A stretch of 35,231 bases of DNA, from the IMG/VR virus record IMGVR_UViG_3300047476_000816, positions 1 to 35,231 of that record. One strand, given 5' to 3'. The stretch is from a virus. The position numbers and the translations under genes are program-made. A model generated the notes under the pieces. That model was given only the letters and a program-made list of their open reading frames with translations. It made no database searches and had not been told where the DNA came from. Shown in pieces: positions 4,998 to 31,174 of the stretch (its first letter is position 1; each line of letters opens with the position of its first letter).

Positions 4998-6119
4998 ATG
5001 AAATTGCTTTCATTCAAACAAGTATCAAACCTAATCAAGAACGTAGGTCATAAGCGCACAATCATTGTGCAAGGCGAGAACGGCATTGGCAAGACGGCTT
5101 TGTTCCACGCACTAGCTCGTGACCCACAATTCACCAATCACATTCACGTTGACCCTATTGACTGCACGCAGTTATCTGACGGCTCAGTATGGATGCCTGA
5201 CATTGACCGAGAGTTGGGCGTATCACGTGAGCTACCTAACGAACGCTTCGGTGTTCACAAGACCAATCAGAAGGGTATCAATGGTGCTCGCCCTGCATTG
5301 GTGTTCTTAGACGAGATTGCCAAGGCTCGTCAGTATATTAAAGATGTGCTCGCACCAATCGTTTACGAGCGACGTGTTGGTAACTACCACATGCCTGAGG
5401 GTAGCGTGGTGTTCTGTGCTACCAACCTAGCAACCGAGGGACTCGGCGATTCTATTCAAGCTCACTTACGTAACCGCTTGGTGTTCGTCAATATGCGCAA
5501 GCCAACCAAAGACGAGTGGGTCGCATGGGGTTCTGAGCGTGGCATTGAGTCAGAGGTGCTAGCGTTTGCCGAGGAATACCCGAAACTCTTTGACAGCTTT
5601 TTGGATTATGAATCTTTTGGTAAGTTCTCAGGCAAAGAGCAAGAGAAAGACAACTCATTCATCTTCAACCCACGCATCAGTCAGCAAGCGTATGCCACAC
5701 CACGTTCACTACAAGCGGCGAGCGACATCGTCAGTATCAAGGACAGCATTGACGACGACACACTACAAGCCACACTTGAGGGCACACTAGGCGTAGCCAC
5801 AGCAGACGCCCTCGGTGCTTATATTAGGTTCGGTCGTGACAACCCTGACTTCTCAGAGGTTATCGCCAACCCAGCCAAGGCACGTGTTGCTCAATCGCCT
5901 GTTGCACAAATCGTTATGACATTCAAGCTCATCACCAACACCGAGAATCGTGAGCATGCCGAGGCGGTGACTGAGTATGTATCACGTATGCGTAACGAGA
6001 TGCAGTCATTGTTCTGCAACAGTATTGCTAACAGCGTTACTAAGATTAACTACTTTGTGACTGTCAAGCCATTCCAACAGATGCTTGCCGAGAACAAAAT
6101 CTACTTCTCAACTAAGTAA
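4998..6119 (+). CDS. MoxR/CobS-like AAA+ ATPase
   Basis: A 373-residue AAA+ ATPase. It shows a Walker A motif GENGIGKT (26-33), a Walker B motif ALVFLDEI (100-107), a sensor-1 type segment VVFCATN (around 140), and downstream HLRNRLVFVNM resembling the arginine-finger region of the MoxR/CobS group. Members of this group act as ATP-driven rings with a VWA-domain partner, remodelling target proteins or helping insert metal ions. Here the VWA partner (6129-7391) follows at 9 bases, which supports that reading. ATG 4998 has AAAGGA upstream. The substrate is unknown; a role in phage virion maturation, host takeover or metallo-enzyme handling would all be guesses. Confidence 0.85.
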   Translation: MKLLSFKQVSNLIKNVGHKRTIIVQGENGIGKTALFHALARDPQFTNHIHVDPIDCTQLSDGSVWMPDIDRELGVSRELPNERFGVHKTNQKGINGARPALVFLDEIAKARQYIKDVLAPIVYERRVGNYHMPEGSVVFCATNLATEGLGDSIQAHLRNRLVFVNMRKPTKDEWVAWGSERGIESEVLAFAEEYPKLFDSFLDYESFGKFSGKEQEKDNSFIFNPRISQQAYATPRSLQAASDIVSIKDSIDDDTLQATLEGTLGVATADALGAYIRFGRDNPDFSEVIANPAKARVAQSPVAQIVMTFKLITNTENREHAEAVTEYVSRMRNEMQSLFCNSIANSVTKINYFVTVKPFQQMLAENKIYFSTK

Positions 6120-6128
6120 GGGGGTTAC

Positions 6129-7391
6129 ATGACTAGCTTATCTACATACGACAAGATGACCGCCGAGCAACGCTTGACTGCGGTCAACGTTGACTTAGCC
6201 AACAACAAGACATTCGCCACACTCTCAGGCGTTGCCTGTGTTGGCACTAACTTCATTGATGACAACATGCCAACTGCGGCGACCAATGGTCGTGACTGCT
6301 ACTATGGTCGTGCGTTCTTGATGGCACAGACACGCAAGCAACTACGCTACGTCGTGCTACATGAGTCACTACACAAGGCGTTACGTCATTGCTCTGAATA
6401 CAACGACATCTGCAAGCGTGAGCCCAAGGCTAGCAACATGGCTATGGACTACGTGGTCAATGCGTTCATTGAAGAGTCTGACCCTGAGTTCACATTCATT
6501 GAGCGCCCAACTATTGAGCCACTTGTTCACCCTAAGTATTTCGGGTGGTCATTCGTGCAGGTGCTACGTGACCTACTCAAGAACGCTAAGCCTATCCAAC
6601 AACCGCAAGATGGCAAGGGTGATGGGCAAGGTGGTAGCCAAGGTGACAAGCAAGTCGGCAAGGTATTCGTTGACCCTGATGGCAAGCCTATTGATGCTGA
6701 GTTTGACGAGCACATGATGGGTGAGCTGACTGACGACGAGCTCAAAGATGCTGACAAGCAGATTGAAGATGCCAAGCAACAAGGTCAGATACTTGCACAG
6801 AAGCTAGCAGGTAAAGGCTCACGTGGTGGTGCATTGGATAACATCATGGCTAAGCGTGACACCAACTGGCGTGAGCATCTTCGTGAGTTCATCGCTGAGA
6901 TATGTGAGGGTGACGAGCAGTCACGATTCGCACCGCCTAACAAGCGCTTGCTACCTCAGGGCATCATCATGCCGTCGCACTTCACAGAATCAACAGGCGA
7001 AATTATCGTAGCGTGTGATACGTCAGGCTCTATGACTGGTCTATACCCTACTGTGTTCGGTGAGATTGCACGCATCTGTGAGAACGTCAACCCTGAGTCT
7101 GTGCGTGTGATTTGGTGGGAGTGTGAGGTAGTCGGTGAGCAAGTGTTCAAGCCTATTGACTATCCAAACATTGCCAAGCTCATGAAGCCTGTGGGTGGCG
7201 GTGGCACACGTGTGTCATGCGTAGCTGAACACATTGAGGAGAAGAAGCTCAAGCCTAAGTGCGTTATCTACTTGACTGACGGCTACATTGAGTCTGACTA
7301 CAAGTTGCCTGAGCTACCTACATTGTTCGGTGCTGTTGACAATGACCAGTTCGTTGCATCACGTGGCAAGACCTTGCGTATCTACTCATGA
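6129..7391 (+). CDS. HExxH metallopeptidase-like and VWA-domain protein (DUF2201-like)
   Basis: A 420-residue two-part protein. The N-terminal part has VVLHESLHKALRH with HExxH at His78-Glu79-His82, followed by MAMDYVVNAF, matching the DUF2201 N-terminal 'putative metallopeptidase' pattern. A Gly/Gln/Asp-rich linker (about 158-178) and an acidic helical segment precede a VWA domain starting GEIIVACDTSGSMTG, whose DxSxS metal site is Asp297, Ser299, Ser301. VWA proteins of this type partner with MoxR/CobS AAA+ ATPases, and the ATPase gene is directly upstream. Whether the HExxH is catalytically active cannot be told from sequence. The next gene starts in the ATGA overlap. Confidence 0.85.
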   Translation: MTSLSTYDKMTAEQRLTAVNVDLANNKTFATLSGVACVGTNFIDDNMPTAATNGRDCYYGRAFLMAQTRKQLRYVVLHESLHKALRHCSEYNDICKREPKASNMAMDYVVNAFIEESDPEFTFIERPTIEPLVHPKYFGWSFVQVLRDLLKNAKPIQQPQDGKGDGQGGSQGDKQVGKVFVDPDGKPIDAEFDEHMMGELTDDELKDADKQIEDAKQQGQILAQKLAGKGSRGGALDNIMAKRDTNWREHLREFIAEICEGDEQSRFAPPNKRLLPQGIIMPSHFTESTGEIIVACDTSGSMTGLYPTVFGEIARICENVNPESVRVIWWECEVVGEQVFKPIDYPNIAKLMKPVGGGGTRVSCVAEHIEEKKLKPKCVIYLTDGYIESDYKLPELPTLFGAVDNDQFVASRGKTLRIYS

Positions 7392-19491: not shown

Positions 19492-19514
19492 TTTAAGTCT
19501 ATTTAAGGAAAACC
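19489..19514 (+). repeat. 26-27-base direct repeat, copy 2
   Basis: It starts at the stop codon of the 139-residue gene: TTTAAGTCTATTTAAG then GAAAACC, differing from copy 1 by one substitution and one base. Here AAGGA inside the repeat is the ribosome site of the gene at 19517. Confidence 0.5.
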
Positions 19515-19516
19515 AT

Positions 19517-20194
19517 ATGTCTAATTTAACTACATTTAATCCATCTCAACTACCTGCATTTGCTCGTAAGGGCGAACTTTCTGAAATTGCTAAAGCTCTC
19601 ACAGGCGGTGGCACTGGCACTTCAATGAAGCGCATCTCTACCAAAGGCGGCGTGTTTCGCTTGATCGCTGGCGGTAAAGAAGTTGCTGCAATTGATGACC
19701 GTCACTTGGATGTTGTGATTGTCAACGCCGCACCGAAAGTAAGTCGTACGTTTTATGCGGGGCAGTTTGTTGAAGGACAAGCGACTGCTCCTAGTTGTTG
19801 GTCTGCCGATGGTGATTTGCCTGACTCAAGTATTAAAGAACCACAATCTAAGTCATGCGCAACTTGCCCACAGAACATCAAAGGTTCAGGTCAGGGTGAT
19901 TCACGTGCCTGCCGTTTCTCTCAACGTCTTGCTGTAGTCTTGGCAAACGACATTGAAGGCGATGTCATGCAGTTAACCCTAGCGGCAACATCAATCTTCG
20001 GTAAAGAAGATGGTGACAAGCGCCCTCTACAAGCATACGCAAGATACTTGGCGGCACAAAGCATTAGCCCTGAGACACTTGTTACACGCTTGAAGTTTGA
20101 TACTAAGGCGGCAGTACCCAAGTTGTTCTTCCAACCAGTGCGTTGGTTAGACGATACGGAGTTTGAGACTGTTACTGCCAAAGGTCAGACTTAA
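19517..20194 (+). CDS. Probable replication/ssDNA-binding-like protein, N-terminal 225 aa, cut by in-frame TAA
   Basis: ATG 19517 has AAGGA at good spacing. The sequence (FNPSQLPAFARKGELSEIAK then RISTKGGVFRLIAGGKEV) matches a conserved phage protein pattern from replication modules. Cys94, Cys114, Cys117 and Cys132 could bind zinc. The frame is closed by TAA at 20192-20194, but immediately continues in frame for 71 more residues, starting DAKRAVTMTVAQTDGVK, and ending VVDNWDADDE, an acidic tail resembling those of ssDNA-binding proteins. The homologous family, as I recall it, runs through this point. So the stop is either a mutation, a readthrough site or an artefact. The ssDNA-binding role is inference. 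Confidence 0.75.
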   Translation: MSNLTTFNPSQLPAFARKGELSEIAKALTGGGTGTSMKRISTKGGVFRLIAGGKEVAAIDDRHLDVVIVNAAPKVSRTFYAGQFVEGQATAPSCWSADGDLPDSSIKEPQSKSCATCPQNIKGSGQGDSRACRFSQRLAVVLANDIEGDVMQLTLAATSIFGKEDGDKRPLQAYARYLAAQSISPETLVTRLKFDTKAAVPKLFFQPVRWLDDTEFETVTAKGQT

Positions 20195-20410
20195 GACGCT
20201 AAGCGTGCCGTTACAATGACGGTCGCCCAAACTGATGGTGTTAAGCCATTAGCGTTGGAAGGCAAAAAGCCTGAAGCTAAAGCAGTAGAAGCTGAGGAAG
20301 TTGACGAGCCTGAAGTTCGTAAAGAAACAAAGGCAAAGCCAACAGCCGTACCAAAGAAAGCCGGCAACCTAGCATCCGTAGTGGATAACTGGGACGCTGA
20401 CGACGAGTAA
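20195..20410 (+). pseudogene. C-terminal part of the preceding gene beyond the in-frame stop
   Basis: Frame and sequence continue from 19517-20194 for 71 codons to TAA at 20408-20410. Contents: a helix-like VTMTVAQTDGVKPLALEGKK, an Ala/Glu/Lys-rich disordered linker, and the acidic terminus NWDADDE. An ATG at 20216 could allow reinitiation, but no ribosome site precedes it. If translated by readthrough, the full protein would have 297 residues counting the stop position. If not, the tail is lost. Confidence 0.7.
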
Positions 20411-26900: not shown

Positions 26901-29759
26901 GCCTAAGTGACCTGTAATCTCGTGGGCTAACGTGCGCTGTAAATCTTTAGCGTCTGTATGGTTTTCAGCAACGATAAACACAACGCCGTTTGGCATTACG
27001 CCGCCACGAACATTGTCAGGATTCATACCCTGCGCTTCTACCGCATCACGTAGATTTCCCTGCAACTTGTTAACAACAACAATTTTTAAGCCTTTAGGTA
27101 CTTTAACCTTGGCAATTACAGCGTCAGCATCTTGTTTGCTTAGCCCTTCTCCGGTCTTGGCGGCTTCTACACGAGCTTTAAATCCAAACTCAAGACCTTG
27201 CTTAACAAACATGTAGTCGTCATAACGTACGCCATGCGCAACTGCGTCCTCATCAAAGTCAACCTTGGCTTTCTTAGCGCTGGTCGGTTTTGCAGCGCCA
27301 GTTTTCATTCTTGGGGGCTGCGCTTTAGCAGTTTCTTTTACGCCACGCATAGCCATGCGGGCTACATCCATCTTGCTCTTAAGTTCTTTCTCAAGACGTT
27401 TAGCAGAAGCTTCTTGGCGTTTAGCCGCGGCTTCATTACCTTTTTTACGGCTTATTTCAGCTTGTTCTTTAAACTCTTTAATTACTTTTTCAAGTTGCTG
27501 CGGCGTTAAGCCTCTATTAGTTTGTTCACGGAACGCTTTACGCTCCTCAGCAAGTTCTTTTTCTTTAGCCAGTAATGCTTTACGCTTTTGCTCAGCTGTA
27601 AGTGGGTTAACAACGGTAGCAATTTTTCCTGGCTCACGCTTTACTTCTACCACAGAAGCGCGTTTTTCTTCTTTTAGCTTAGCTAACTCACGTGCAACTT
27701 TGTTATAGGCGCTTGTACCTTCTTTAAGACCGTTTAAAGTTTCTTCTTTGGCACGGATTTCTTTGTTTAAATTTAGGTATCTTTCTGTTTTAGCTTCTAC
27801 GTTTGTGTCAATCATAGGCAAGCTAACAACTTTACGCTGTTGCGCAGCTACCTCTAGCGCTTTTTGTTCTGCAATACGTCTAGCTTTTGCTTGGTCTTCA
27901 AGCATTTTGGTTTGCGTAGCTTCTGACTTAGCGTGGTCTTCACGAGCTTTGCGTAGTTTATTTTGTAGCTGTAAAGCCGCTTCAGACGCTTTAGGGGCTC
28001 TTTCAAGCTTTTTCTCTAAGCCTTTCAAAATAGCGCGTTCAAACGCTAAGTCTGCGGTCATCAAATCATTAGCTTGCTCATGCAACGCGTCAATTTCAGA
28101 TAATACTTTTTGCCTAAACTCAGGGGCTAAGACTTCTTTAATCTCGTCTTGAAGCTGCTTAATCTTGTCAAGAGCTTTTTCACGCTGCTTTTCTGTAGCG
28201 CCTGACTTAGAAATATCTTGTTTCCACAAAGCTATAGCGTACTTTAAACGCAACACTTCTTTTTCGGCTGTTTTTTCCCATAGCTGGGCTGCGCTAGCGC
28301 GTAACTGAGCGACTAGAAAATCGGCACCTTGAACTGCGTTTACATAATCTCTTTGTTCGCGTATCTGTTGCAACAAATCTGCATCAACTTGAGGTGTTTT
28401 TGTAGAGAGTTCTTTTCTTTTTGCTTGAGCAGTTAACGCTTTTAGTTTCTCTCTTACTTTGTTTACTTCTTTAGAGTTTAAAAACTTTAAGAACCCAGCA
28501 GGCGTAGCGCGTGTTATGGCTAGGCTAGGTGTCTCTGACGGTTTAGCTTCTTTAGTTTCTTTAAGCTCGGCTTTCTTTTCTTCAAGTTGTTTGCGTGCTT
28601 CTACAGCGGCTTTAATATTTTTACCTGAATTTGCGGCTTTAAACTTTTTCTCAAGGTCAGCAACTTCTTTTTCAAGCGCCTCTACGTTTGTTTTCTTAAC
28701 GGCTTTTTGGTTAGCTTCGCCAAACAACTCGCCTTGCTCAATGTTGCCAACGTTAGATACGTCAACCTTTTTACCAGCTTCTTTTTCACGAGGTGTTAGA
28801 GCAGCTTGCTCAACGACGCGGTACCCATCTTTTGTTTTCTCAACTTTAGAAGTGCCTTTAGTAGCTTCTGCGCGTTCTTCACGAGTCTCAGGGCTAGGTT
28901 GGCCAAACTGCTGTTTAAGCATGAACTCTTCTTCGCCCTGCACAAACTGCTGCTTGATGTCCTCAAGCTGTTTAGCCAACGGGCTTAGACCAGTAACACG
29001 TCTGCCTTCTTGTGGGTACATCAACATGCCGGTGCTCTTATTGGCTAGCACAGGTGCAAATGCCCTACGTAATTCTTGTACAAAACCAAGCACTTGCTGG
29101 TCGCTTAAACGGCCCATATCTTGTTTAGCACGCTGAGCATCCAACTCTTCAAGCGCTAACATAATGTAGTCTTGTGATGCTTTATCTGCAAGATTAGTTA
29201 GGGTTGTATCGTTTGGCGCTTCGCTAGACTGCTCAAGGCGTGTTAACAACTCATCAAGTTTGGCTCTTTGTTCTTGCTGAATGCCGGCGACAGGGCGTAC
29301 AGGTTCGCCTTTAGCTTGCGCTGCTACAGTTGTAGCTAGTTTAGGCTGAATTTCTTGGATTAAACGCTCAACTTCAGCAAGACGGCCTTTAGCGTACCAA
29401 GGTTCACCAGACTTTTGTAATCTAGCTTTTTCATCTTTTAGCGCTTTCATTTGAGCTTTTAGCTCATCCGCGGTCGGCAAACGCATGTACTGTTCAGCAA
29501 TACCGCGGGACTTCTCAATCTCTTCCTGTATAGCTTCAGCATCAAGGACTTCTTGTGACCGCGCGCCGAGTGCTTGCTCTTGTGCAGCGCGCTGCGCTTC
29601 CGTTCTAGCTGCACCTTCAAACAAGCTAGGCTGTGTTGGCTCAGTTACGTTCTTTAGCTTTTCCTGAACGACATCTATTTTTTCAGCAATCTTATCTAAC
29701 TTATCTTTATCAAACGCTTCGCCAGTATATTTTTTAAATTGGCTTTGTAGTTTAGACAA
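23901..29759 (-). CDS. Giant virion-associated polyvalent protein with zincin-like motif, 1952 aa
   Basis: The last gene of the late block. The first 830 residues are largely charged coiled coil (Lys/Glu/Ala-rich). Around 890-960 is a zincin-like domain with LAHEITGHLG (His946, Glu947, His950), then a region rich in Ala-Leu helices. The C-terminal part contains NPAYALRQVIRDPMNAVMVS and a hydrophobic FTMLYAAMM segment, and resembles the large polyvalent-protein domains (LPD38-like, from memory) of phage ejected proteins. Such proteins are thought to enter the cell with the DNA and act on host or genome-protection targets. The only in-frame start after the previous gene's stop is TTG 29759, with a weak ribosome site. 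Confidence 0.85.
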   Translation of the reverse strand: MSKLQSQFKKYTGEAFDKDKLDKIAEKIDVVQEKLKNVTEPTQPSLFEGAARTEAQRAAQEQALGARSQEVLDAEAIQEEIEKSRGIAEQYMRLPTADELKAQMKALKDEKARLQKSGEPWYAKGRLAEVERLIQEIQPKLATTVAAQAKGEPVRPVAGIQQEQRAKLDELLTRLEQSSEAPNDTTLTNLADKASQDYIMLALEELDAQRAKQDMGRLSDQQVLGFVQELRRAFAPVLANKSTGMLMYPQEGRRVTGLSPLAKQLEDIKQQFVQGEEEFMLKQQFGQPSPETREERAEATKGTSKVEKTKDGYRVVEQAALTPREKEAGKKVDVSNVGNIEQGELFGEANQKAVKKTNVEALEKEVADLEKKFKAANSGKNIKAAVEARKQLEEKKAELKETKEAKPSETPSLAITRATPAGFLKFLNSKEVNKVREKLKALTAQAKRKELSTKTPQVDADLLQQIREQRDYVNAVQGADFLVAQLRASAAQLWEKTAEKEVLRLKYAIALWKQDISKSGATEKQREKALDKIKQLQDEIKEVLAPEFRQKVLSEIDALHEQANDLMTADLAFERAILKGLEKKLERAPKASEAALQLQNKLRKAREDHAKSEATQTKMLEDQAKARRIAEQKALEVAAQQRKVVSLPMIDTNVEAKTERYLNLNKEIRAKEETLNGLKEGTSAYNKVARELAKLKEEKRASVVEVKREPGKIATVVNPLTAEQKRKALLAKEKELAEERKAFREQTNRGLTPQQLEKVIKEFKEQAEISRKKGNEAAAKRQEASAKRLEKELKSKMDVARMAMRGVKETAKAQPPRMKTGAAKPTSAKKAKVDFDEDAVAHGVRYDDYMFVKQGLEFGFKARVEAAKTGEGLSKQDADAVIAKVKVPKGLKIVVVNKLQGNLRDAVEAQGMNPDNVRGGVMPNGVVFIVAENHTDAKDLQRTLAHEITGHLGVEGVLGEAGMNALIKKITSQYGSVFKLADQLGVGEDALAAFNAAKRIGKTDAQALATAVREMIAHTEEARPDKNFLAKAGEFIKAMVGAVRAALRKIGIDLDISTSDIFKLLRDARKDFDAVVPGAYVNKDGDILFSSKPSTATGEFASVLRSAGRIVAQQKPWHDRLFGELTGLTFQTKYLDRFAPVQKVLEKTRNSLKATQLMYFLRMHDQRMAWTSEIASHGAAVLRAAKDGKGLIIESKDGANLKQIAEALRTAKVGTPEDTNRMFTLYLLAKRAKRVGIDKLNFSGKVTQPMLDAAIRAVENSKETKAAFEKAAGIYNEYNKGLVNFAIQTGAISKELGRLMLASEDYVPFYREKSDGTVVLEIGGAPPIKIGNVAEQPYLHELIGGDEAVLDFFTSSLQNTAMMTDMALRNLAARNVAFTLGEMGLLKVNENEKGIGIRPGDGPANKPGAHKTIRFKVDGEEKHVIVDTDAAGVDSELLVRGLEGVNTALPNAVKMMNIPANLLRKWVTRNPAYALRQVIRDPMNAVMVSGVNTFPVVSSLKEIAKVFPKIIKGEEVQNELRSKGILGGQVLTGTSEDQKQILTQITSGKAGWDSVWARADQLAIQGDAATRVVMYNSFLKQGLSEMEATLATLEAMNFSKRGISPSLFALSTMVPFMNAQIQGLNVLYSAFTGKMPFSEKLQIKKKLFQRAAMMTGFTMLYAAMMQDDEAYKNANDEEKLNNWFVYVPGVDEPVRVPIPFELGLLFKALPEAVVNTAFGDDKARDTLSALGKLAWNAVPISGPQGVKPLLETAINYSFYTGREIESDRLQRFEPGERYNDRTTELVKAIGQATNISPVKIEYLIRGYMGGIPLAIGSLANPVLRSGEGGEKPEGRPSELPLFGSFFQPTDAQGLVNKAYKDVQEINRTKETWKKMEEEGRYKEADALLDAEADVIGLASLAGRFRQRMGELTKEERQIKADPTMSAKEKRQALDEIRQEKINLAKDLSSERG

Positions 29760-29767
29760 CTCTGCTT

Positions 29768-31174
29768 CTAGACGCGGTCCTCAGCCTTTTGCGGTTGGGG
29801 CATAGCCTTCAGTTGTTTGTCGGTTGCGTCAAGCGCTAATCGAATGTTCTCAAGCTGTGGGGCTATTTTTCTGTAAGCTTCTGTGTTGCCACTTTCAATT
29901 GCAGCATTTAGTTGTTTTGTAGTTTGGTCAGCCAAAGCTGCTAGTTGGGTACGGGTGCGCGCAACATCCGCATAGGTAGGCATCTCAACGCCAGCTTCTT
30001 GAGCAGCCCGTTCTCTTTCTCTAACAGTAGTCGTAGGCGCGCCTGTAAGTGCAAACTCCGGAACCTTACTTGTATCTGTAGCATCTAAGCGCTCGTCTGC
30101 GGTACGCGAACGCTCGCCTGTTTTTGTAAGCGTCTCTGGAAGAGCACTTGCTTTGCCGGCCACATCACCAAATATATCGCCGGTTTTTTGTTGTTGTGCA
30201 ACAAGTTTAGCCACTTCTTTAGCGTCAATAGCTGCTTGTTTTTCTTGTTCAGCTTTAGCGTCTGCTTCATCTTGTAGGCGTTGTTCTTCTGCTCTAGCTA
30301 ACTGTTTGGCACCGCCGCGCTCCATAAACTTGCCAGGAACTGACAACGTGCCACCAAGAACTGCACCACCAATAAAGCTTTCAAAATACTCATCACGTGC
30401 TGCTGGGTCTGCAATTTCTAAGCCAGCTTGCAAACGCTCTAAGAATTGCTGCGCAACTTCTGTTGTACCTTCAATACCAGCGGTCTTAGCACCTTGAAGT
30501 GCGTACGCGCCAGCTGTCTTCAGCATGCCTTGCTGGGCAATCTCTTTAGCCATTTCAGGCGTAATCTTCTTACCCGCCGCACCAAAGATACGACCAACAC
30601 CAGGTATCATGCGCAAGGAAAGCGTGTCGAGTGCGGCTTGAGGAATAGCGGCTGCACCAGCAGCCAGCAAATCTGTATCTCTAAGGGCTCTGCCTTCGTC
30701 CATCTGACGACCAAGGTTTGTAGCAGTGTATTGCGCAGCACCAGCACCAAAACCAGCACCAAGAGCAGCAAGACCGGCAGCAGGTGCGGCAACTTTAGCA
30801 GCGCCAGCAGCCACAACAGGGGCTACAACATATGGTAATGAACCACCAAGTAATTCACGCGCTTTTAAAAACGGCGCATCCGCCCAACCTTCTTCAGTTG
30901 GCGCAAATATATCTTGTGCTTTTTGTTTTTGAGCTTTAGCGTATTCTTCGGCTTTTGCCTCATCCATCAAGCCAGTACGGCCTAGTAACGCGGCAACATC
31001 ACCTTTAAGTTCTTCTGTAGATGCTTTAAGTGCACCGGTGAATCCGGTGTCTTTTGGTTTAGGCGGCTCAAACGCCTCTGGATACTTTTGTCTGGCTATT
31101 GCAAACGCTTCTTGCGGTGACTTTCCTTCAGGGATTGTGAAGTAGCTGTTATCAGGTAAGCGTAGGTATGCCAT
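29768..31174 (-). CDS. Probable internal virion/ejection protein, 468 aa
   Basis: ATG 31174 has only a weak AAAG site. The N-terminal MAYLRLPDNSYFTIPEGKSP followed by QEAFAIARQKYPEAF is a short domain seen at the front of phage virion proteins. Residues about 110-150 are Ala/Gly-rich and hydrophobic (VVAPVVAAGAAKVAAPAAGL), as in proteins that must cross or line a membrane channel. The C-terminal half is Gln/Glu/Lys-rich coiled coil. It lies directly upstream of the giant protein, so the two may be packaged and ejected together. The role is inference from position and composition. Confidence 0.7.
   Translation of the reverse strand: MAYLRLPDNSYFTIPEGKSPQEAFAIARQKYPEAFEPPKPKDTGFTGALKASTEELKGDVAALLGRTGLMDEAKAEEYAKAQKQKAQDIFAPTEEGWADAPFLKARELLGGSLPYVVAPVVAAGAAKVAAPAAGLAALGAGFGAGAAQYTATNLGRQMDEGRALRDTDLLAAGAAAIPQAALDTLSLRMIPGVGRIFGAAGKKITPEMAKEIAQQGMLKTAGAYALQGAKTAGIEGTTEVAQQFLERLQAGLEIADPAARDEYFESFIGGAVLGGTLSVPGKFMERGGAKQLARAEEQRLQDEADAKAEQEKQAAIDAKEVAKLVAQQQKTGDIFGDVAGKASALPETLTKTGERSRTADERLDATDTSKVPEFALTGAPTTTVRERERAAQEAGVEMPTYADVARTRTQLAALADQTTKQLNAAIESGNTEAYRKIAPQLENIRLALDATDKQLKAMPQPQKAEDRV

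Follow-up and report, generated by a model that had tools for sequence, protein, structure and literature searches.

An in-frame TAA private to one viral contig interrupts a conserved phage gene for a probable SSB-like protein

The gp32 proteins of phages T4 and RB69 (PDB 2a1k, 8gme) have an OB fold, an insertion that carries a metal site, and a C-terminal region that is acidic. Phage T7 does not tolerate deletion of the tail of its protein gp2.5. ORF6 of phage Enc34 belongs with gp2.5 to the acidic-tailed single-stranded DNA-binding proteins (SSBs); deprived of its acidic tail it still binds ssDNA, gains dsDNA binding and loses its selectivity for ssDNA (PMC5686142). The end of the Enc34 protein, as implied by a quoted cloning primer, is WDEDEV (PMC5686142). 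Gp3 of phage phiC31 is a recombination directionality factor, and Gp3 of phiC31 and phiBT1 is seemingly needed for phage DNA replication besides excision (PMC3836970).

Here we analyse a gene in an IMG/VR virus record, a linear fragment of 35,231 bp which is referred to as the window. As the original prediction described, the frame from ATG 19517 comprises 225 codons, is closed by TAA at 20192-20194 and then stays open for 71 sense codons up to TAA at 20408-20410. These 71 codons translate as DAKRAVTMTVAQTDGVK ... DNWDADDE. With uniform codons such a run has a chance of about 3% of being open, (61/64)^71, but chance is not the explanation, because the same codons align to the C-termini of homologues. 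ATG 19517 is preferred as start over ATG 19463 because an AAGGA motif lies at the right distance; in the alignment, the homologues start at the same ATG. The features discussed below are the following.

19505-19509, plus strand: AAGGA, Shine-Dalgarno-like, 5' of ATG 19517
19517-20191, plus strand: N-terminal 225 amino acids, SSB-like (phrog_27714), predicted OB-fold core with an inserted loop carrying four invariant cysteines
20192-20194, plus strand: the in-frame stop codon TAA, seen in this contig alone; all 80 homologues compared (best 80 of 591) have a sense codon here
20195-20407, plus strand: 71-codon continuation with the end of the last core helix, a low-complexity linker and the conserved tip DNWDADDE
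20216-20218, plus strand: internal ATG suggested as a reinitiation site; in the protein an ordinary Met/Leu position, with no Shine-Dalgarno motif upstream
29759-29785, minus strand: second private lesion, a frame change splitting a large late gene that is a single ORF in 4 of 4 comparable relatives

A scan of viral contigs confirmed 591 relatives; the analysis was continued with the best 80, whose core identity is 67-87%. Every one of these 80 carries a sense codon at the stop column (E 24, D 24, T 13, P 9, A 6, I 4). Seven of them leave the contig end only beyond this column and 73 are complete; none of the 80 ends at it. Three copies from genome bins are likewise read through, which brings the related copies to 83, none with the stop. 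The statement in the original prediction that homologues run on through this point thus proved right once they were aligned across residue 226, and the downstream codons, being conserved, belong to the gene. The closest relative, L001, has GAA (Glu) at the stop column, one base away from TAA. In all 73 complete homologues a Trp is found within the last eight residues, inside the acidic tip. Homologues L114, L115 and L116 come from contigs that binning had assigned to Chitinophagales, Armatimonadetes and Gammaproteobacteria genomes; this taxonomic spread suggests misbinned phage contigs rather than indicators of the host.

Between the window and L001, the 71 tail codons show 26.5 changes that are synonymous against 6.5 that are nonsynonymous (dN/dS 0.044), a ratio equally low as that between intact relatives (0.057-0.142). 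Judged from these codon changes, selection at the protein level has acted on the tail over most, if not all, of the period since the window and L001 diverged, so that the stop is either very young or not real. The tail changes assigned to the window branch itself (3 synonymous, 2 nonsynonymous, 24 ambiguous) are uninformative. The synonymous divergence between the two sequences (dS) is 0.21 in the core and 0.93 in the tail. About 460 bp of the gene (window 19650-20110, L001 approximately 640-1100) are nearly identical with a handful of mismatches, while the flanks are far more diverged; this stretch is likely a recent recombination tract.

Comparison of these sequences leads us to conclude that TAA 20192 is very probably a single-base nonsense change private to the contig, either an assembly or sequencing error or a recent dead-end mutation, in an otherwise intact and constrained gene. 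Such a change explains all observations except one, a slightly better RNA folding downstream of the stop than in shuffled sequences. A second copy of the stop-bearing sequence was not found in viral_contigs with exact and degenerate patterns across the stop, exact patterns from either side of it retrieved no other contig of the same phage, and the phage collection held no near-identical isolates. Since no other contig of the same phage was found, it is the relatives, and no replicate genomes, that show the stop to be private.

For window genes that have relatives among the fetched loci, no in-frame stop other than 20192 breaks up a real gene; a search of the window with the ORFs of relatives gave many in-frame stops, but all except this one lay in shadow frames or upstream of starts and were rejected. 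The contig carries a second private lesion of another kind. A late gene on the minus strand, extending from 31174 down to 23901, shifts frame near 29780 and is thereby split into ORFs of 468 and 1,952 amino acids. In relatives this gene is one ORF, of 2,810 codons in G002, 2,882 in G003 and about 2,550 in G006 and G007. Because two private gene-breaking lesions lie within 35 kb, a base error in the metagenome assembly is favoured over a real, recent and probably deleterious mutation. A generally poor assembly would predict otherwise than what is seen, as the contig is clean outside both lesions wherever relatives exist; a degenerate real variant could conceivably lie behind both. A plain nonsense mutation or sequencing error, which the original prediction had named among its readings, is accordingly the best-supported one, and the private frameshift in the second gene adds strength to it.

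Translated without the stop, the normal gene product would be one protein of about 297 amino acids, in which an ssDNA-binding-like domain with an OB fold and a zinc site is followed by an unstructured linker and, at the end, a tip of Trp and acidic residues. The core may coat ssDNA, and by analogy with T7 gp2.5, T4/RB69 gp32 and Enc34 ORF6 the tip would attract partners in replication and hold DNA binding in check. Linker and tip, together with the last helix, would be missing from the truncated product of 225 amino acids. It had been suggested that the stop removes an acidic tail. This holds for the tip WDADDE, in which the acid is concentrated; the post-stop part as a whole is only mildly acidic (net -4 over 71 residues, net -3 over the final 20), and TAA 20192 also removes the last predicted core helix (L001 residues 223-229, block pLDDT 84). 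The loss therefore exceeds a tail and reaches into the folded domain, and with core helix and tail missing the 225-amino acid product, if made, is probably impaired.

It is improbable, then, that the truncation is real and tolerated, with a phage that lives with the tailless 225-amino acid protein and tail codons that are a fresh, not yet decayed relic. The stop is clean and in frame and the core ORF is intact, as this explanation asks for; yet the last predicted core helix is lost as well, the tip is kept in 73 of 73 complete homologues, the stop occurs in no other contig, and in T7 the tail of gp2.5 is indispensable to the phage. The Enc34 protein can be quoted on both sides, as the tailless SSB keeps its ssDNA binding but pays with its ssDNA selectivity (PMC5686142).

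The original prediction had further proposed that readthrough, or reinitiation at 20216, would make a tailed and a tailless form; with a leaky UAA or such reinitiation, separate tail products are another conceivable outcome. In its fullest version the UAA would be real and leaky in one phage lineage, and the level of readthrough would tune partner recruitment and DNA binding through tailed and tailless SSB-like forms. The tail is indeed open, conserved in sequence and devoid of other lesions. However, a stop shared among relatives, the mark of programmed readthrough, is seen in 0 of 80 homologues (best 80 of 591), and ATG 20216 is not preceded by a Shine-Dalgarno-like motif in the window. The codons in the 20216 column of the same 80 homologues are ATG 64, CTG 8, TTG 2, CTC 2, CAG 2, ACA 1 and CTT 1, that is, a non-start codon (CTG, CTC, CAG, ACA or CTT) in 14 of 80 and TTG in two more. 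This mixture marks 20216 as a protein position that takes Met or Leu, not as a conserved start. A structure following the stop, which had been named as a sign to look for, was found in part. In the window, the 120 nt after the stop (20195-20314) fold better than shuffled sequences (z -2.5 to -2.7), but the same stretch has a z of -0.41 in L001, the nearest relative, and across 26 homologues the average z is -0.49. With 14 gene stretches examined, the excess in the window is within reach of chance. The search for a tRNA that reads TAA turned up no tRNA of any kind, either in the window or in two relatives with genomes of about 67 kb, no Rfam element was matched, a scan for promoters and terminators around the stop scored no higher than on shuffled sequences, and a literature search on phage readthrough returned nothing bearing on this case. 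Expression of two programmed forms, whether by readthrough or reinitiation, is thus very unlikely. As the claim of readthrough fails, this gene does not belong in catalogues of phage genes with recoding or two product forms.

That this phage reads TAA as a sense codon can hardly be credited. With such a reading the frame would be open, but TAA is the normally placed terminator of many conserved window genes, and inside conserved genes it occurs nowhere else, which argues against recoding, as the original prediction had correctly judged. The window and the two relatives of about 67 kb are also without a suppressor tRNA.

With the private nonsense base as the preferred reading, the analysis yields a lead to the function of the interrupted gene. 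Its core matches phrog_27714 (E 8.8e-35, residues 31-213), a family of unknown function present in hundreds of phage contigs. The same family also matches Xp15 gp40, KPP25 gp70 and proteins of Pseudomonas phage Rollin, Rhizobium phage TM3_14A and Acinetobacter phage Effie. These named phages share the four invariant cysteines, and several have a gene for a SNF2-type helicase or a Gam-like protein nearby; in contrast to the window, their proteins, at about 27-33% identity, have another linker length and another tip (GWDD, GNW, NKW) and are without the internal stop. The cysteines C91, C111, C114 and C129 (L001 numbering) do not vary among 29 sequences, the most distant at 29% identity, and are present in the window. 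For the window core there was no Pfam match at E 0.001, NCBIfam gave no match, and a sequence search against solved structures returned nothing meaningful, at E 0.8 only. Weak matches to Pfam Gp3-like (PF18897) occur in 18 of 39 homologues, with a best E of 0.00098.

A first model of the full-length protein reached pLDDT 56. As this model was weak, a core model was built with distant relatives (pLDDT 69.8, pTM 0.62). The top match in four structure searches, with both models, was phiC31 Gp3 (PDB 9teh, 9teh_I), with a Foldseek probability of 0.84-0.97 (E 0.037-0.014) and Z 7.3-7.5 over 139-144 residues at an rmsd of 4.1-4.8; for the core model the probability is 0.97 and Z 7.3. The weak PF18897 matches agree with this likeness; on the other hand, sequence identity to Gp3 is 10-13%, and no serine integrase was noted beside the window gene. 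The core model aligns also with the RB69 gp32 core (Z 7.2, 160 residues, rmsd 4.1) despite 6% identity, where a Z below 8 may reflect a common arrangement only. OB folds of BRCA2, RPA and SSB follow at Z 3-6. Because the Z values are middling, an OB fold is likely, not proven, and the models likewise suggest that proteins of this family are likely to play an SSB-like role. The acidic-tailed SSBs Enc34 ORF6 and T7 gp2.5 resemble the window protein in their disordered acidic C-terminus with a similar end, WDEDEV of Enc34 being close to WDADDE, which in the window is encoded behind the stop; they differ in that no match to them was found by sequence or structure, and the tail in the window is far less acidic.

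The upstream part of the replication module comprises a polA-like polymerase (recognised from its translation), an exonuclease, a SNF2-type helicase and a Gam-like protein, and a primase/helicase lies downstream. The description of a conserved replication gene is well founded in this module, the SSB-like predicted fold and the conserved acidic tip. The models thus point to a probable ssDNA-binding protein with an OB fold, a zinc site and a conserved tip of Trp and acidic residues as a function for this family of unknown function. The apparent need for Gp3 in phage replication (PMC3836970) fits a replication role for the shared fold. Structural closeness to both gp32 and phiC31 Gp3 would fit a recruitment of Gp3 from a replication protein.

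Two annotations in the window deserve comment. The ORF at 19018-19491 matches phrog_13900, 'minor head protein', a name used in Xp15 and KPP25 too, and it also matches the Mu Gam-like family; with its position in the replication module and the Mu Gam-like match, the name is probably wrong. At 4998-7391, an ATPase (phrog_1297) is followed by an 'HNH endonuclease' (phrog_1314) with HESLH and DTSGSM motifs. Going by its motifs, the phrog_1314 product appears more like a metallopeptidase and VWA partner of a MoxR-type ATPase than an HNH endonuclease.
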